This document shows, piece after piece, positions 57,901 through 64,000 of a stretch of 64,000 bases of DNA. The notes under the pieces are model-generated. The model saw only the letters and a program-made list of their open reading frames with translations, made no database searches and was not told where the DNA came from. This DNA comes from Bacteroidales bacterium (GTDB lineage: Bacteria; Bacteroidota; Bacteroidia; Bacteroidales; UBA932): NCBI GenBank assembly GCA_024401695.1, contig JAKSKN010000015.1, positions 1 through 64,000 of the forward strand, in the 5' to 3' direction. Positions within the stretch are counted from its first letter, which is position 1, and every line of letters starts with the position of its first letter. The position numbers were made by a program, and so were the translations under genes.

Positions 57901-58452
57901 ATGGAAAACAATAGGATCAGACTTTGGGACAAGACTTTCAAGCCTTATATCCCGGCCGAAAAACTTGATGAGGCCATCGATGCGGTTGCTGACAGGATCA
58001 ATGCGGACTTTGCAGGCTGTGAAGACATTCCGGTCGTGCTGTGCGTACTTAACGGCGCCATAATGTTTACAGGTGAACTGATGCAGAAGTTCACTTTCCC
58101 GTGTGAGCTTGTGTCGATCAAGCTGTCTTCCTATCAGGGCACGCAGTCGACCGGTACCGTGCTCAACATCCTCGGCCTTACGGCTGATGTGCGCGGCCGC
58201 CGTGTGATCATATGTGAGGATGTCGTCGACACCGGCAACACTATAACCGCTCTCAAGGAGCTTCTCCTTGCCAAGGGGTGCGGAGAGGTCCGTATCTGCA
58301 CTATGCTTTTCAAACCGGATGTCTATAAAAAGCAGGACAAGATTGACTATGTCGGTATGTCCATACCGAATGAATTCATTGTCGGCCACGGACTCGATTA
58401 TAACGAGCTCGGCCGCAACGGAAAGGACATCTACGTGATAGACAACGACTAA
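57901..58452 (+). CDS. hpt: Hypoxanthine phosphoribosyltransferase
   Basis: Hpt salvages hypoxanthine and guanine to IMP and GMP using PRPP. The 183-aa protein has normal length. The PRPP-binding motif is VIICEDVVDTGNT (about 101-113), with LNGAIMFTGEL (about 51-61) and the flexible-loop region SYQGTQSTG (about 79-87) before it. The ATG at 57901 is chosen; the frame before it crosses the promoter. In many Bacteroidales hpt is followed by adk and obgE, but here an accessory insertion follows and only the first codons of obgE appear at 59415. Confidence 0.95.
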   Translation: MENNRIRLWDKTFKPYIPAEKLDEAIDAVADRINADFAGCEDIPVVLCVLNGAIMFTGELMQKFTFPCELVSIKLSSYQGTQSTGTVLNILGLTADVRGRRVIICEDVVDTGNTITALKELLLAKGCGEVRICTMLFKPDVYKKQDKIDYVGMSIPNEFIVGHGLDYNELGRNGKDIYVIDND

Positions 58453-58621
58453 GTTGCCTGCCGGATGGCCTGCAGCTGATTTCCAAACTCACATTCCCGC
58501 TTCTGATGGTCCTCGCGGGACTTTTCTTCATTGACTGCTGCTCGTCGCAATCTGCCTTGCAGCCCTTCTTTGTGCAGTCTTCGGACTGATTCGAAACCTT
58601 GTGCCGAAAATTTAAGCCAAC
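58453..58621. other. Intergenic stretch after hpt, possible remnant
   Basis: 169 bp with no complete gene. One plus-strand frame without a start contains LISKLTFPLLMVLAGLFF, which looks like a membrane helix from a lost gene, but it is too short to assign. No terminator is obvious for hpt. Confidence 0.35.
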
Positions 58622-59091
58622 TTACTCTGAGAATCGCTTCAAATCGTAGTACATCAGCACTGTGTCTTCCTCATCATCGCTTGAAATAAGCCTTTCGAAA
58701 TGATTCTGCTGATAGAAATCCACTGCTGAACGAAGAGCATCAACAGTGATATACCGGCATCCGGCTCTATTGTCAGAAGAATACCACTGCTTCACAAGAC
58801 CGAGAATTTTGGAGCCGAATCCATGACCCTTATATTCTTCACTCACAGCAAGACGGCCTATTTTGATGGCTGGATATGAGCGTCTGCGCTTCGCATTGGG
58901 AATCTGCCTGGAAAGACGATTCCAAATCGTTTTGTCAGCAAGGTCATGCTCAATACGGTCGTGTAGTAAACTGAAGTAGGGACATTCTCATTTGATTCCA
59001 ACAAAAAGCCATTCAAATCGGAATCTCCGCAATCGAATGGCTTGATGATATCTGTTTGGGGATTGAAGCGCTTGAATTTTATTTCCATCAC
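58622..59091 (-). pseudogene. GNAT acetyltransferase, broken by deletion and frameshift
   Basis: The minus strand starts MEIKFKRFNPQTDIIKPFDC and continues to NENVP, the N-terminal part of a GNAT enzyme of the Bacteroidota toxin-like group. The frame then shifts: the continuation YFSLLHDRIEHDLADKTIWN and KRRRSYPAIKIGRLAV is read in another frame, leading to SEEYKGHGFGSKILG (the acetyl-CoA loop) and a normal C-terminus. About 25 residues around the junction (near 58980) seem lost as well. The small gene before it overlaps its start by 4 bp, as in toxin-antitoxin pairs. Confidence 0.82.
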
Positions 59092-59246
59092 AAAGCAAAT
59101 GTTGCTACCGACTGGAAAAATTCATATGCTTTTTTCGCCTCCTCCTTCTCTTCCTTAGAGGCCGGCGAAACATTCTGCGATGCCATCTCAAACTTGAGGG
59201 CATCTTCTCCGGTAAGAACCGGTGTTTCTCTGATAGGTTTTGCCAT
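59088..59246 (-). CDS. Small protein paired with the GNAT gene, antitoxin-like
   Basis: This 52-aa protein starts MAKPIRETPVLTGEDALKFE and continues with a charged helix (KEEKEEAKKAYEFFQ). Its stop overlaps the GNAT start by 4 bp (ATGA), the usual arrangement of a type II antitoxin with its toxin. I do not recognise a known DNA-binding fold in it. The start at 59246 is chosen over an upstream in-frame ATG at 59366 whose extra residues come from a repeat copy. With the toxin gene broken, it may now be an orphan. Confidence 0.6.
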   Translation of the reverse strand: MAKPIRETPVLTGEDALKFEMASQNVSPASKEEKEEAKKAYEFFQSVATFAL

Positions 59247-59303
59247 AGCTTCTATATTATTTTTGCAATAATAAGAAGATTTCTTCAATCCACAATACAA
59301 CAA

Positions 59304-59353
59304 TCCATAGAAAAAACCATAGACGCCAACTGGAGTCCAAGAATTACCCCGAA
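59304..59353 (+). repeat. Hairpin repeat, copy 1
   Basis: Fifty bases nearly identical to 63219-63270, including CCAACTGGAGTCCAAGAATT and the ending ACCCCGAA. The centre GACGCCA-AC-TGGAGTC is a short stem (one mismatch). Copies at 61071 and 63219 have the same orientation. Confidence 0.75.
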
Positions 59354-59399
59354 AACCCTCGTCCATTAAGACTATTAGGGCACTTCGGAAAAGAATCGT

Positions 59400-59407
59400 T
59401 ATATTTG
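59400..59407 (+). promoter_or_regulatory. -7 promoter box before the obgE stub
   Basis: TATATTTG, 7 nt before the ATG at 59415. The promoter appears intact though the gene it served is cut short. Confidence 0.65.
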
Positions 59408-59414
59408 CAGCATT

Positions 59415-59456
59415 ATGGCAGACAGCAATTTCATAGACTATGTCACAATGCTATGA
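59415..59456 (+). pseudogene. Stub of obgE (first ten codons)
   Basis: ATG-GCA-GAC-AGC-AAT codes for the start of MADSNFIDYV, which matches the N-terminus of Bacteroidota Obg GTPase (MADSNFVDYVKIYCRSGKGG from memory of the family). After codon ten the likeness stops and the frame closes at codon 13 (TML then TGA). Together with the intact promoter and the hpt neighbour this indicates that an insertion has cut obgE just after its start. The rest of the gene is not in the window. Confidence 0.7.
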
Positions 59457-59493
59457 TTTTCAACCATAGCGAAAAATACAAAAACATTGAATT

Positions 59494-59517
59494 ACGGCCT
59501 TTCAAGGCCGTTTTTCA
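59494..59517 (+). terminator. Terminator after the obgE stub
   Basis: ACGGCCTT pairs perfectly with AAGGCCGT around TC, followed by TTTTTCATTTTT. It isolates the integrase gene from the promoter at 59400. Confidence 0.85.
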
Positions 59518-59530
59518 TTTTTGCCCACTT

Positions 59531-59588
59531 ATGCTTACCTATGCTTAAAACTCGTTTTCAACTACACTTTTGTTACTATTTTGTTACT
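59531..59588 (+). repeat. Short direct repeats beside the integrase gene
   Basis: ATGCTTA occurs at 59531-59537 and 59541-59547; TTTTGTTACT occurs at 59568-59577 and 59579-59588. Paired short repeats with a 10-11-bp period beside a tyrosine integrase gene fit arm-type integrase-binding sites of an attachment region. This is inference from position and spacing. Confidence 0.5.
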
Positions 59589-59721
59589 CAAAAATAGGCC
59601 AAAAACGCAATTATATACGCATACAATGCGGTTTTTGCTGAAAAACTGTAAACAAAATCCTATTGCGTATTCCCACAATTATTGTCTATCTTTACCTATA
59701 TTTAATAAGGTTTAGTTGCTT

Positions 59722-60900
59722 ATGAGAGTGAAAGAAGACAAAGAGAAAAGCCCTGTGACTATAAGATACAAGGCTCTCAAGAACGGGAATCAGTCAATCT
59801 ATCTTGATTGCTATCTCGGTAGTGGACAGAGAGAATACAAGTTTCTGAACCTCTATCTCCGTCCTGGGAAATCAAAGGAAGACAGGGAGTGGAACAAGAC
59901 TCAGATGGAACTTGCGACTGCCATCAAATCTCAATATATCGTCGATATTCAGAATGGAGTGTACGGATTCAAGGACCTCAACCGCACGCGCAAACTCAAC
60001 TTCATCGACTATCTGCAGAGGATGTCTGATGATTACGCGAAATCTGGCCAGAAAGCCTGCCACACCCTGATGGAAAGCACAATCAAACGCCTCATCCGCT
60101 ACAAGGGCAAGAACGTTAACTTCAATCAGGTTGACAAAGAATATCTCATCGGCTTCATTGATTACCTCAACCACGAGACCAACGATTTCGACACTCGAAA
60201 GGCAGACCAGGGGCGAGTGCAGAAGCCACTCAGTGACGTTTACAAGGAAGCTCTGTTCGCAAGAGTAATGGTGGCCCTCAACAAAGCTGAACGCGAAGGC
60301 ATCATCATCAAGAATCCCGGCAAAGACATTGATCACAAACTCAAACCGCACGCAAAAGAATCAACCCGCTGCTATCTTACCCTTGAAGAGGTCAAGAAAA
60401 TCATCGAAACGCCATACTGGCCAAAGAATGATGTCAAACCGGCATTCCTCTTCTGTTGCTTCAGCGGCCTTCGCCACTCAGATCTATTGAAACTGACCTG
60501 GGGAGAAATCAAGCAGACCGCTGACGGCCAGTACCAGATTGAGACGATGATGAAAAAGACGAAACACAGTGTCGCAGTACCTCTCTCGGAGAACGCTCTG
60601 TCTTTCCTGCCGGAACGCGGAGAAGCCAAAGACAGCGACCGTGTATTCCCCAACCTTCCTGACCAGCCCGGCAATGCGGATGCCCGGCTCAAAACCCTCA
60701 TCCGTCACGCGGGCATTGACAAGAAAGTCTCATTCCACGTCGGCCGCCACACCTTTGCAACCCTCACACTGACCTACGGAGCCGACCTCTACACCGTCTC
60801 CAAACTCCTCGGCCACTGCAACATCCGCACAACTCAGATCTACGCCAAAATCGTCGACGAGCAGAAACGCAAGGCGGTCAACTTGATACCGAAGCTATGA
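59722..60900 (+). CDS. Tyrosine-type site-specific integrase
   Basis: The 392-aa recombinase has the three-part layout of Bacteroidota mobile-element integrases: an N-terminal arm-binding domain (about 8-85), a SAM-like core-binding domain (about 90-195) and the catalytic domain (about 215-385). The catalytic residues are R251 (SGLRHSD), H339 and R342 (HVGRHTFAT), H365 (LLGHCNI) and Y374 (TQIYAKI), with K281 near TKHSV as the beta-hairpin Lys. It lies 265 bp after the obgE stub, where such genes sit next to the attachment site. The -7 region is weak (TATCTTTA, TATATTTA). Confidence 0.93.
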   Translation: MRVKEDKEKSPVTIRYKALKNGNQSIYLDCYLGSGQREYKFLNLYLRPGKSKEDREWNKTQMELATAIKSQYIVDIQNGVYGFKDLNRTRKLNFIDYLQRMSDDYAKSGQKACHTLMESTIKRLIRYKGKNVNFNQVDKEYLIGFIDYLNHETNDFDTRKADQGRVQKPLSDVYKEALFARVMVALNKAEREGIIIKNPGKDIDHKLKPHAKESTRCYLTLEEVKKIIETPYWPKNDVKPAFLFCCFSGLRHSDLLKLTWGEIKQTADGQYQIETMMKKTKHSVAVPLSENALSFLPERGEAKDSDRVFPNLPDQPGNADARLKTLIRHAGIDKKVSFHVGRHTFATLTLTYGADLYTVSKLLGHCNIRTTQIYAKIVDEQKRKAVNLIPKL

Positions 60901-61176: not shown

Positions 61177-61467
61177 TTACTTTCTCCAAATAACCTCTCC
61201 TTTTTTCTTAAAATCACCAAACCCTGAGAATTCAGCATACTCTTCTCCTTTGTACAACCTTGCAGCTTGTAGCCATGATAGTGCTCCATCTGGATTCTCT
61301 AAAGCATAATCACAGCATAACACAAAAGTACCACGAGGAAAAGGTTGTGTCGGTATAATCGACTTTTTCTCATATATCCCTCGATTAATAGAACCATCTG
61401 CACCGGGTCTATAAATACGCATAATTCTGGCCTCTCCGTTTGTGCTTTCTTTTTCGAGTTGAAACAT
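61177..61467 (-). CDS. Small protein of unknown function after HigA-ImmA
   Basis: This 96-aa protein is not recognised. It is soluble in character, with a short beta-like core (GTFVLCCDYALENPDG) and WLQAARLYKGEEYAEFSG after it. It starts 33 bp after the stop of the HigA-ImmA gene on the same strand, so it is probably the third gene of that operon. No signal peptide or membrane segment is seen. Confidence 0.55.
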   Translation of the reverse strand: MFQLEKESTNGEARIMRIYRPGADGSINRGIYEKKSIIPTQPFPRGTFVLCCDYALENPDGALSWLQAARLYKGEEYAEFSGFGDFKKKGEVIWRK

Positions 61468-61500: not shown

Positions 61501-62592
61501 TCATGAAATACGTCGAGATGCGTCATTTCTGAACTTAAACATTCCTGTCTCGTGGCTTATTCTTCCTAAAGCAATCCATTTGTTATACCCATTACCTTGC
61601 GCCCACATTGTGTATAACCTTTGAATCTGTGCCGGATATAACTGCACTTCAGGAATCTTTTTCCATACGGAATCAGGAATCAAAGCATTTGCAGCGAAGG
61701 AATTTGCAGCTTTCTCTTCCGGGCTCTCGTGGTCATAATCCTCAAGATTAACGCGTCTATCTTCGTTATCGTGATTTTTTACATGACCGAGTTCATGCAT
61801 TACTGCGAAGGCAAGGTTATCAATACGGTTATATCGTGTTGTAACAACAATACAAGGATTGCCATTATAATCAAATGAATAACCATCAATCGAAGCGCCA
61901 TCGACTTTTTCTACAACACCAAACAGAATACCATACTTTGCGAATGTGCGTGTAAGATTCTCAATGGTATTTGTATTTGAATGAAGGATAGAACTAATCT
62001 GGGGGATCAATTCATCAAGACGTGATTCCTCATAATTAGCATAAAAATTGCTTGAATATGCAAAATGCTTAGCAAGAAGCATCCAGGTCATAATCATACG
62101 AGGATCTTTGCCAACCTTTGCAGATTTCTTGAAAAGTCCATCTGTCTGCACCTGTAGTCTTGCTGGTTCAGGAAGTAGAAATGACTCTTTTATGAATGAT
62201 AGAATCTCTGAACACAAAGTGGATTTAAAGTTCAGACGGGTTGTCAGAACTTTAATGTCTACCAGTTTATTGTATTCTTGAAGCTCATCGCGTGCAGCCG
62301 TCTCCGCGATTTGCCTTTCTTTGTTTTGAGCAGTGTCGTAATCAAATTTGGTCTGAAGATTAACCCAATCAATGGATGGAATTCCAAGGATTTCTTCCAG
62401 TTTGTCCGCTACCGGTTTTGTGATAGAACGTTTCCCTTTTATAATCTCGCTAAGATGAGAAGGCTGCATCTTGATGTCCTTTGCGAAAGTCTTTTGGGAA
62501 ATGCCACGTTCTATGAGTTCCTCCTTGAGAATGCTTCCTGGATGGATAGCCATAAAGATAGGAGCCTCAATGTTTGTTGCCATAGTGGTCAT
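61501..62592 (-). CDS. HigA-type HTH antitoxin fused to an ImmA/IrrE metallopeptidase domain
   Basis: The 363-aa protein joins an XRE/HigA helix-turn-helix domain (about 15-75, starting IHPGSILKEELIERGISQ) to an ImmA/IrrE zinc-peptidase domain. The zinc motif HELGH is at 266-270 and the third ligand Glu follows near 293 in SPEEKAANSFA. Known ImmA/IrrE proteins cleave repressors, so the fused form may regulate itself or its operon. The start used here is the ATG overlapping the toxin gene by 26 bp; two internal ATGs (codons 4 and 14) are alternatives. Confidence 0.9.
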   Translation of the reverse strand: MTTMATNIEAPIFMAIHPGSILKEELIERGISQKTFAKDIKMQPSHLSEIIKGKRSITKPVADKLEEILGIPSIDWVNLQTKFDYDTAQNKERQIAETAARDELQEYNKLVDIKVLTTRLNFKSTLCSEILSFIKESFLLPEPARLQVQTDGLFKKSAKVGKDPRMIMTWMLLAKHFAYSSNFYANYEESRLDELIPQISSILHSNTNTIENLTRTFAKYGILFGVVEKVDGASIDGYSFDYNGNPCIVVTTRYNRIDNLAFAVMHELGHVKNHDNEDRRVNLEDYDHESPEEKAANSFAANALIPDSVWKKIPEVQLYPAQIQRLYTMWAQGNGYNKWIALGRISHETGMFKFRNDASRRIS

Positions 62593-62887
62593 TATTTAAT
62601 TCTATAATAGTAATTTCAATACCTTCTTCGATTTCTCTGAAAAGAAGCCTCTCGACTCTTCCATTGACAACTCTGACGGAACTTAAGCCAACATTATTCC
62701 TAAGTTGTTCATAATGCAAATAACTATATGCCTTTAGTCCTTCTGCTTTTTCAACGACAAGCATAATTTTGTACGCCCTCGCCAAACCCTCCATAAACTT
62801 CTTATCCTTGGAGTACTTTTTATACTTATTGTTATGGCCTGTTTCTATCAATTCCTTCAGGTCATCATCAGCAATATTAACTTTCAT
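62567..62887 (-). CDS. HigB/RelE-like toxin
   Basis: The 106-aa protein is of the size and pattern of RelE-superfamily toxins: an N-terminal helix (LKELIETGHNNKYKKYSKDK), a middle part with LHYEQLRNNVGLSSVRV, and a C-terminal strand pair with ERLLFREIEEGIEITIIELN. The family cleaves ribosome-bound mRNA. The order toxin before antitoxin and the 26-bp overlap with a HigA-like gene are typical of higBA. The start at 62887 is chosen because the longer frame crosses the promoter region. Confidence 0.8.
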   Translation of the reverse strand: MKVNIADDDLKELIETGHNNKYKKYSKDKKFMEGLARAYKIMLVVEKAEGLKAYSYLHYEQLRNNVGLSSVRVVNGRVERLLFREIEEGIEITIIELNNDHYGNKH

Positions 62888-62920
62888 ACAGCATAGTAAT
62901 ATATTTATTGCAAGCCACTG

Positions 62921-63011: not shown

Positions 63012-63239
63012 ATGATTATGGCTCAGAATAAATTCCGAATTACTCAGAAAGATTTCCTTATTGCAAATCGCAGAGCATCACGACTTGAGGAAATTGAAGC
63101 TCATGGCCATCCGGTTATTTCCAGAACCATGACCCACAAGTCAAAAAAGATCTATGACCGAAAACAGTTCAAGAGAGCTGCCATCAAGAGCGATGACAGC
63201 TCTTATTGTTTCCAATCATCCATAGAAAAATCATCATAG
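63012..63239 (+). CDS. Small basic protein of unknown function
   Basis: This 75-aa protein (73 from the second ATG) is basic and helical: KFRITQKDFLIANRRASRLE, then a middle part and KKIYDRKQFKRAAIK. Similar short proteins are common in Bacteroidales genomes and remain unassigned; this is from memory, not a search. It has its own promoter, divergent from higBA. Its last codons (SIEKSS) lie inside hairpin repeat copy 3, so the present C-terminus may be secondary. Confidence 0.55.
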   Translation: MIMAQNKFRITQKDFLIANRRASRLEEIEAHGHPVISRTMTHKSKKIYDRKQFKRAAIKSDDSSYCFQSSIEKSS

Positions 63240-63270
63240 ACTCCAACTGGAGTCCAAGAATTACCCCGAA
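63219..63270 (+). repeat. Hairpin repeat, copy 3
   Basis: Fifty-two bases nearly identical to 59304-59353, from TCCATAGAAAAA to ACCCCGAA. The centre GACTCCA-AC-TGGAGTC is a perfect 7-bp stem. It overlaps the stop codon of the small basic protein gene. Confidence 0.75.
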
Positions 63271-63400: not shown

Positions 63401-64000
63401 TTAGAAAGTTACTCTCCAGCTGAAGTTCGGCATTATCGGAAGGATGGCGATTTCGTTCCAGGTTTCCGTCGTTCCGTCGAAATACAGCATGAACGGGTTG
63501 AAGTGGTTGGTGACGTTGCAGACGCCCAGATTCACCTTATGTCCTACATTACCCGTCTTGAACTCGAACTGGTATCCCAAGTCAAGGCGAATGACCGTCG
63601 GCATCCGGTAGTTGTTTACGCTGGCGAAATACTTTGCCGTCCAGTCCTCACCGGGGAGGTGTAGATCATACGTCTCTGCAGCCCCGTTCTCCCAATTGCC
63701 GCTCTGAAGGATGAAGCCGGCGCTGAAGCCCTTCCACTGCGCCATCGCGTTCAGGACGTGCGGACGATCGAAGCGGGCGTGGAAGGGTTGTCCGTCATTA
63801 GTCTCTAAGAAGCCGTGCCTGTCCGTCCTTGAGAGCGTATATGCAAGCCTCGCGTAGAAGTCCTTCCCGAGATATTCGTACAGAAATTCCCCGCCGAATG
63901 CAGTTCCCTTGCCAAAGTCAACCTGAGTCTCCCACTCTGCCAGAGCACCGCTGAACAGCGACTGTGCGTACTTGTAATAAATCAGCCCGTCCATAGCCTT
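63401..64000 (-). CDS. TonB-dependent receptor, C-terminal part (cut by window edge)
   Basis: About 199 residues of the end of an outer-membrane TonB-dependent receptor. The frame stays open to the window edge, so the gene begins outside. The strands are typical of the barrel: FGGEFLYEYLGKDFYARLAY, then FDRPHVLNAMAQWKGFSAGF, RLDLGYQFEF, NLGVCNVTNHFNPF and a last strand ending in Phe (PNFSWRVTF). This is the signature end of Bacteroidota barrels exported through Bam. The transported substrate cannot be inferred from this part. The stop codon is intact. Confidence 0.88.
   Translation of the reverse strand, partial: KAMDGLIYYKYAQSLFSGALAEWETQVDFGKGTAFGGEFLYEYLGKDFYARLAYTLSRTDRHGFLETNDGQPFHARFDRPHVLNAMAQWKGFSAGFILQSGNWENGAAETYDLHLPGEDWTAKYFASVNNYRMPTVIRLDLGYQFEFKTGNVGHKVNLGVCNVTNHFNPFMLYFDGTTETWNEIAILPIMPNFSWRVTF

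Follow-up and report, generated by a model that had tools for sequence, protein, structure and literature searches.

The stretch of DNA analysed here (the window) comprises positions 1 to 64,000, forward strand, of contig JAKSKN010000015.1 from a Bacteroidales bacterium of the UBA932 lineage (GenBank assembly GCA_024401695.1). Towards its end the window very probably, with a rough probability of 0.92, carries one side of a mobile element that, judging from sequence comparisons, integrates at the 5′ end of obgE and rebuilds the gene from a 5′ end of its own. obgE encodes a GTPase and is usually essential, its essentiality in these species being taken from general knowledge. The promoter, the codons for MADSNFIDYV (the start of Obg) and, following them, unrelated DNA, a terminator, short repeats and a tyrosine integrase gene are all present as the original prediction, made from the window alone, had described them. 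The stub begins with an ATG at 59415 and passes from MADSNFIDYV into TML and a stop codon (59415-59456). The further proposal, that the element brings a replacement 5′ end and restores obgE at its other side, is supported by an intact obgE on another contig (C3) of the window's genome, by stubs and in-frame rebuilt genes that can be aligned as pairs in eight genomes, by conserved element ends, and by one element, in genome G252, that lies contiguously between its two junctions.

The arrangement suggests integrase catalysis at obgE as well as excision of the element. In the proposed mechanism the tyrosine integrase would recombine attP with obgE codons 7-9 (ATAGACTA), attP bearing a leader with a promoter and a differently coded obgE start up to about codon 9. 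On integration the original promoter and first codons would remain as a stub next to the integrase, shut off by a terminator in most of the elements seen, and the leader and codons of the element would be fused in frame to the remaining host obgE. Through this fusion the gene would stay whole and single-copy, and it would be transcribed from the element.

Recurrence of the stub and integrase phylogeny

The likeness of the stub to Obg is not due to chance, since, of 200 genomes in the genus, 166 contain an Obg 5′-end pattern (at most two mismatches), the window's own (G000) among them, against one match for the reversed control in the whole set; coincidence is thereby ruled out. Most genomes used are metagenome bins. 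Two matches occur in eight genomes. Three double matches were set aside: in G005 the first copy reaches about codon 20 before a scaffold gap, in G011 there are two full obgE genes, perhaps from two strains, and G059 has each of its matches near a contig end (86 and 55 bp), apparently a single locus that the assembly has split.

Among the same 200 genomes the four closest relatives of the window integrase (57-66% identity) are in G208, G163, G185 and G241, and in G208, G163 and G241 an obgE stub lies just 5′ of the integrase and a further obgE start is found on a different contig. When GTDB species genomes were scanned with the window integrase, 111 relatives came up, of which 79 loci were kept, the bulk at 36-45% identity. 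Eight of the 79 bear the stub (L100, L101, L103, L104, L105, L106, L109 and L111). These are all of the loci at 60-69% identity with enough upstream sequence, and in each the stub ATG lies 305-352 bp from the integrase match on the same strand. The stub is absent from the 67 other judgeable loci, 75 loci having more than 400 bp upstream. Too little upstream sequence is present in L102 (67% identity, 172 bp), L116 (254 bp), L134 (396 bp) and L174 (325 bp). As L104, L105 and L111 are contigs of G208, G163 and G241, nine genomes carry stub and integrase together, window included.

A single change suffices for the stub trait on a tree that comprises the window integrase and 44 of the 79 loci. The smallest well supported set has 12 rows (100/100 support): the nine stub rows plus L102, L107 and L108. 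The integrases of L107 and L108 sit elsewhere (just upstream of 10001 in each locus). In L107 the site follows directly on a short protein gene; in L108 it adjoins a gene resembling, on inspection by eye, the right-end gene family described below, and the same TGTTAC pair is present. Outside cellular genomes, integrase relatives in IMG/VR reach 45% at best among 80 kept of 402, with a stub in none of the 80. The ten best places listed are 35-40% identical in a phage collection, where one record among the 291 contains a match of 60-80%, and 30-40% identical in a plasmid collection.

These data bear on the reading of the stub as a decayed, partial second copy of obgE that lies beside the integrase by chance. 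Second copies do occur, as in G005 and G011 above. Against this, likeness to obgE ends near codon 10, the stub recurs at a nearly constant distance from a single integrase clade, and in G163 it occupies the place after adk. Being tied to one clade, the stub is not a random decayed duplicate; given its recurrence and position we reject that reading as extremely unlikely. The original prediction had named two outcomes that would speak against it, an intact obgE locus with adk together with a decayed duplicate stub, or a coincidental likeness to Obg. What is found instead is that the intact obgE is the rebuilt one.

Element ends, rebuilt obgE and the crossover

Eight pairs of stub and rebuilt gene were compared, from G000, G163, G208, G241, G252, An289 (Muribaculum sp., L106), G250 and G070. 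In all eight genomes the rebuilt obgE is in frame with 5′ codons and a leader supplied by the element. The contiguous element of G252 (L109, CALVDE010000004.1) has stub and rebuilt obgE 22.96 kb apart on the same strand, in the order stub, integrase, YhcG-type nuclease, HTH_17, AAA ATPase, DUF6371, type I restriction genes, other open reading frames (ORFs) and rebuilt obgE. The HTH_17 protein is a candidate directionality factor.

In seven of the eight pairs the longest in-register identical block includes ATAGACTA (obgE bases 19-26, codons 7-9), and in the An289 pair the block is exactly these 8 bp, which are likely to be the crossover sequence. Residues 4-10 (SNFIDYV) are identical within all eight pairs and residues 2-3 differ in four. 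Directly 3′ of the stub, GTGAAATTGCAAAAGAAAACATCGG is common to G208, G163 and G070 despite their differing stub codons. The leaders 5′ of the rebuilt ATG are likewise alike: 98% identical over 300 bp between G163 and G208, 89% over 302 positions between G252 and An289, and 87% over 208 between G000 and G241.

Both ends carry paired short repeats. A TGTTAC pair, 11 bp apart, stands at -73/-62 of six of the eight rebuilt genes; G000 and G241 have a degenerate pair at -63/-52, the window genome's version being TGTTGC/TGTTGT. No such pair is present in 40 non-rebuilt obgE upstreams (of 48 upstream regions; 2 of the 40 have less than 73 bp). At the other end 10 of 10 left ends carry a repeat pair of 11-bp spacing at comparable distances, with offsets from 155/166 to 160/171; in three left ends the pair is at 168/179 and its second copy is CGTGAC. 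In L013 (G090:C70), from a genome of another family, TGTTAC pairs with 9-bp spacing precede obgE at -138/-129 and -40/-31; they may reflect a different type of element or some form of regulation.

A terminator hairpin (-11.4 to -18.0 kcal/mol) with a T-run follows the stub in seven of ten left ends, L104, L105 and G070 being without one; of 100 plain shuffles, 30 contain some hairpin, the best at -9.5. Two terminator-like sites lie in 59250-59800 of the window, where shuffles give a mean of 0.4 (sd 0.5). The window terminator would stop transcription coming from the old obgE promoter. The new leaders each hold, per 350 bp, one TAnnTTTG box, which we take to be the Bacteroidota promoter box (8 of 8; at -190 in two and -259 to -278 in six), in a plain, uncontrolled count.

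An imperfect direct repeat in the window (59298-59353 and 63213-63270) has a near-palindrome around CCAACTGGAGTC. Its core (59311-59353 and 63228-63270) is 91% identical over 43 nt and is found at only these two places in the genome. It is not preferred as the true attachment pair, one copy lying outside the stub and the other inside the element.

obgE in the genome of the window

The search for obgE elsewhere in the genome, which the original prediction had advised, finds it intact, behind another leader and with its first codons recoded. A single match exceeds the Obg family cut-off (C3:72318-73286; six weaker ones fall below it), within an intact frame at C3:72309-73301 (L010:6105-7097). 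Its leader is unlike the one preceding the stub; over the first ten codons the gene differs from the stub at 6 of 30 bases and encodes the same peptide.

The window's contig (C7) ends 53 bp before a TonB-receptor gene (minus strand), and the end of C3 falls within a DUF4249 gene, the probable partner of that receptor gene. DUF4249 precedes the TonB-receptor gene on the same strand in six of eight comparison loci (L192-L196 and a short one on the genome's own C16), follows it in one (L199, own C9) and is not found in one, L191, which starts near a contig end. Because the ends of C7 and C3 do not overlap, we only infer the link between stub and obgE; if the contigs were joined, the two would face the same way at a distance of roughly 9.6-9.8 kb. 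G000 has six related TonB-receptor genes (C7, C9, C13, C16, C65), some with DUF4249 partners, and such related copies could be the reason why the assembly breaks between C7 and C3.

Ancestral gene order

The original prediction took hpt-adk-obgE to be the order of Bacteroidales. hpt is indeed upstream in the window and the full order is seen in relatives. In the window's genome, however, adk is on contig C5 and not beside hpt, and the order does not hold throughout the genus, since adk lies within 400 bp upstream of just 6 of 40 non-rebuilt obgE genes. It stands 85-105 bp 5′ of an uninterrupted obgE in five congener loci. G163 has the order hpt-adk-stub-integrase, with the adk match ending 90 bp before the stub ATG, and downstream of its rebuilt obgE come PAP2 and murF, an arrangement shared with many uninterrupted loci. 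Window positions 59389-59444 align over 57 positions, at 86% identity, with the start of the uninterrupted obgE of congener G037 (L058) and the sequence 5′ of it. From the G163 order and this likeness of stub and promoter, the stub is best read as the original 5′ end of the host's obgE.

The place of adk in some relatives, 58453-59366 in the window, holds a GNAT acetyltransferase gene, apparently broken, and a short minus-strand ORF that looks antitoxin-like by eye and matches no family. The G070 element contains a similar short ORF and GNAT gene.

Homologous exchange or genome rearrangement, rather than the integrase, might also have given obgE a new 5′ end. Many congeners have rearranged obgE neighbourhoods, as the adk counts indicate, and adk has moved in the window's genome. 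The repeats at fixed distances on both sides, the 8-bp core in seven of eight pairs and the association with a single integrase clade argue against this, and we consider exchange or rearrangement very unlikely.

Several observations weigh against integration and rebuilding by this clade. G185/L107 (57% identity) and L108 (53%), which are among the 67 loci without a stub, are near relatives of the integrase, and the base of the stub-bearing clade is not resolved on the tree. G249 has an integrase of the clade on a 4.8 kb contig that starts 172 bp upstream of it, and its obgE has adk 187 bp upstream. G247 and G248 carry stubs yet have no obgE match at E 1e-60. Only the G252 pair is on a single contig; the other seven, the window's included, are each split over two, and the window join rests on the facing halves of the DUF4249-TonB pair, with no sequence overlap. 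Finally, G070 has a stub and a rebuilt gene without the common core, and no integrase match; its ends may therefore have decayed or stem from different strains. Its stub (L098, G070:C39, at 3535, minus strand) lacks ATAGACTA and is accompanied by an element left end.

Cargo and present mobility

The features of the locus are collected in Table 1.

Table 1. Features at the obgE stub and in the adjoining element (window coordinates)
Feature	Position	Strand	Basis or remark
hpt, host gene 5′ of target site	57901-58452	+	ORF list; homologs adjoin adk and obgE or stub in L049, L050, L091
Native obgE promoter region (putative)	59389-59414	+	TATATTTG box at 59400-59407
obgE stub, codons 1-10 (MADSNFIDYV), left junction (attL)	59415-59444	+	
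ATAGACTA, probable crossover sequence	59433-59440	+	Inside longest in-register identical block, 7 of 8 pairs
Intrinsic terminator just inside element	59494-59511	+	Hairpin with T tail
Paired TGTTAC direct repeats, probable integrase arm sites	59571-59587	+	Starts 59571 and 59582, 11 bp apart
Tyrosine integrase, obgE-targeting clade	59722-60900	+	ATG start (TTG at 59716 possible); Pfam Phage_integrase, Phage_int_SAM_5, Arm-DNA-bind_5
96-aa protein of unknown family, cargo	61177-61467	-	No Pfam, PHROGs or PADLOC match
Helix-turn-helix (HTH) and ImmA/IrrE-type (Peptidase_M78) protein, cargo	61501-62592	-	Pfam; resembles PD-Lambda-2 B
107-aa ORF overlapping HTH/ImmA gene, cargo	62567-62890	-	Listed from upstream TTG; no family match
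75-aa ORF, cargo	63012-63239	+	No family match
3′ part of TonB-dependent receptor gene	63401-64000	-	Runs on to about C7:65425

The window integrase matches Pfam Phage_integrase at E 6.2e-24. The HTH-ImmA/IrrE protein matches PADLOC PD-Lambda-2_B at E 1.9e-29; the neighbours of its gene have no match in Pfam, PHROGs or PADLOC, and no complete defence system is therefore claimed.

Genes resembling anti-phage defence are found in the cargo of all three other elements scanned (An289, G252 and G163). An289 has a Gabija-like pair (GajA E 2.9e-302, GajB E 2.6e-92) and AbiL-like genes (E 3.9e-67 and 1.3e-18), G252 a type I restriction system, and G163 a cytosine methylase beside an ATPase without a PADLOC match. 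One protein family near the rebuilt gene is common to four of eight right ends (An289, G163, G208, G252); three G252 members of it have no Pfam or PHROGs match. Among 10 proteins scanned against PHROGs the named matches are the integrase and one AAA ATPase only, and no conjugation genes are found among the proteins scanned, which are a part of all ORFs.

It is quite possible, if not the reading we favour, that the island in the window is an old and now immobile remnant, whose integrase once acted at obgE and whose TonB cargo may be host DNA. Such a reading bears on mobility today and does not conflict with an origin by integration at obgE. The integrase is the only protein cluster that the window element has in common with the others, the right-hand repeats in the window's genome are degenerate, the G241 integrase has a stop and a frame change, and G070 has lost its integrase. 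On the other side, the window integrase frame is open, and the integrases of G163 and G208 are nearly identical (end branches 0.014 and 0.009), as are their right ends, beside different stub codons, a pattern suggestive of recent movement within the family.

Relation to known systems and significance

Rebuilding of a target gene after cutting its 5′ end has precedents. In the excerpts of the literature at hand, SXT/R391 is a gammaproteobacterial conjugative element of about 100 kb with prfC (release factor RF3) as its target, and the likeness of SXT at prfC to the present elements is the 5′-end-targeting, gene-rebuilding strategy. The target obgE, the Bacteroidales host and the lack of conjugation genes in the set scanned set them apart from SXT/R391. 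dusA-associated islands and prophages such as IMEVchUSA3, according to extracts of their descriptions, provide a new promoter and restore the reading frame (PMC4482086, PMC8409611). The new N-terminus that dusA receives from IMEVchUSA3 shows, according to those extracts, 61% identity over 35 residues, whereas the obgE elements supply about ten codons, with residues 4-10 unchanged. The displaced native 5′ end, the in-frame rebuilt target and the site-associated integrase seen here are those of the prfC and dusA type. The original prediction called the strategy rare; the rebuilding stands, and the published cases at prfC and dusA temper the rarity. Bacteroidota tyrosine integrases with Arm-DNA-bind_5 and Phage_int_SAM_5 have the same domain make-up as the window integrase and differ in lacking the obgE stub in the 67 other loci. 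Among the matches listed from the open-access literature, no paper has obgE as an integration site. New here would be the target, the phylum and, probably, the integrase clade; the strategy itself is known.

More tentatively, and in our estimate less likely than not, the elements may form a Bacteroidales island clade, several members with defence genes, that attaches at obgE and rebuilds it from its own promoter in such a way that partial loss of the island costs obgE expression. If true, host survival and growth control would be tied to retention of the island, and the element could retune a growth regulator. The question raised is whether the elements alter obgE expression and hence resist loss by partial deletion. 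The candidate attB (ATAGACTA, in obgE codons 7-9) is common in the genus and might serve as a site for targeted integration. To the known cases in which a gene is cut at its 5′ end and rebuilt, the elements would add a usually essential gene and Bacteroidota hosts.
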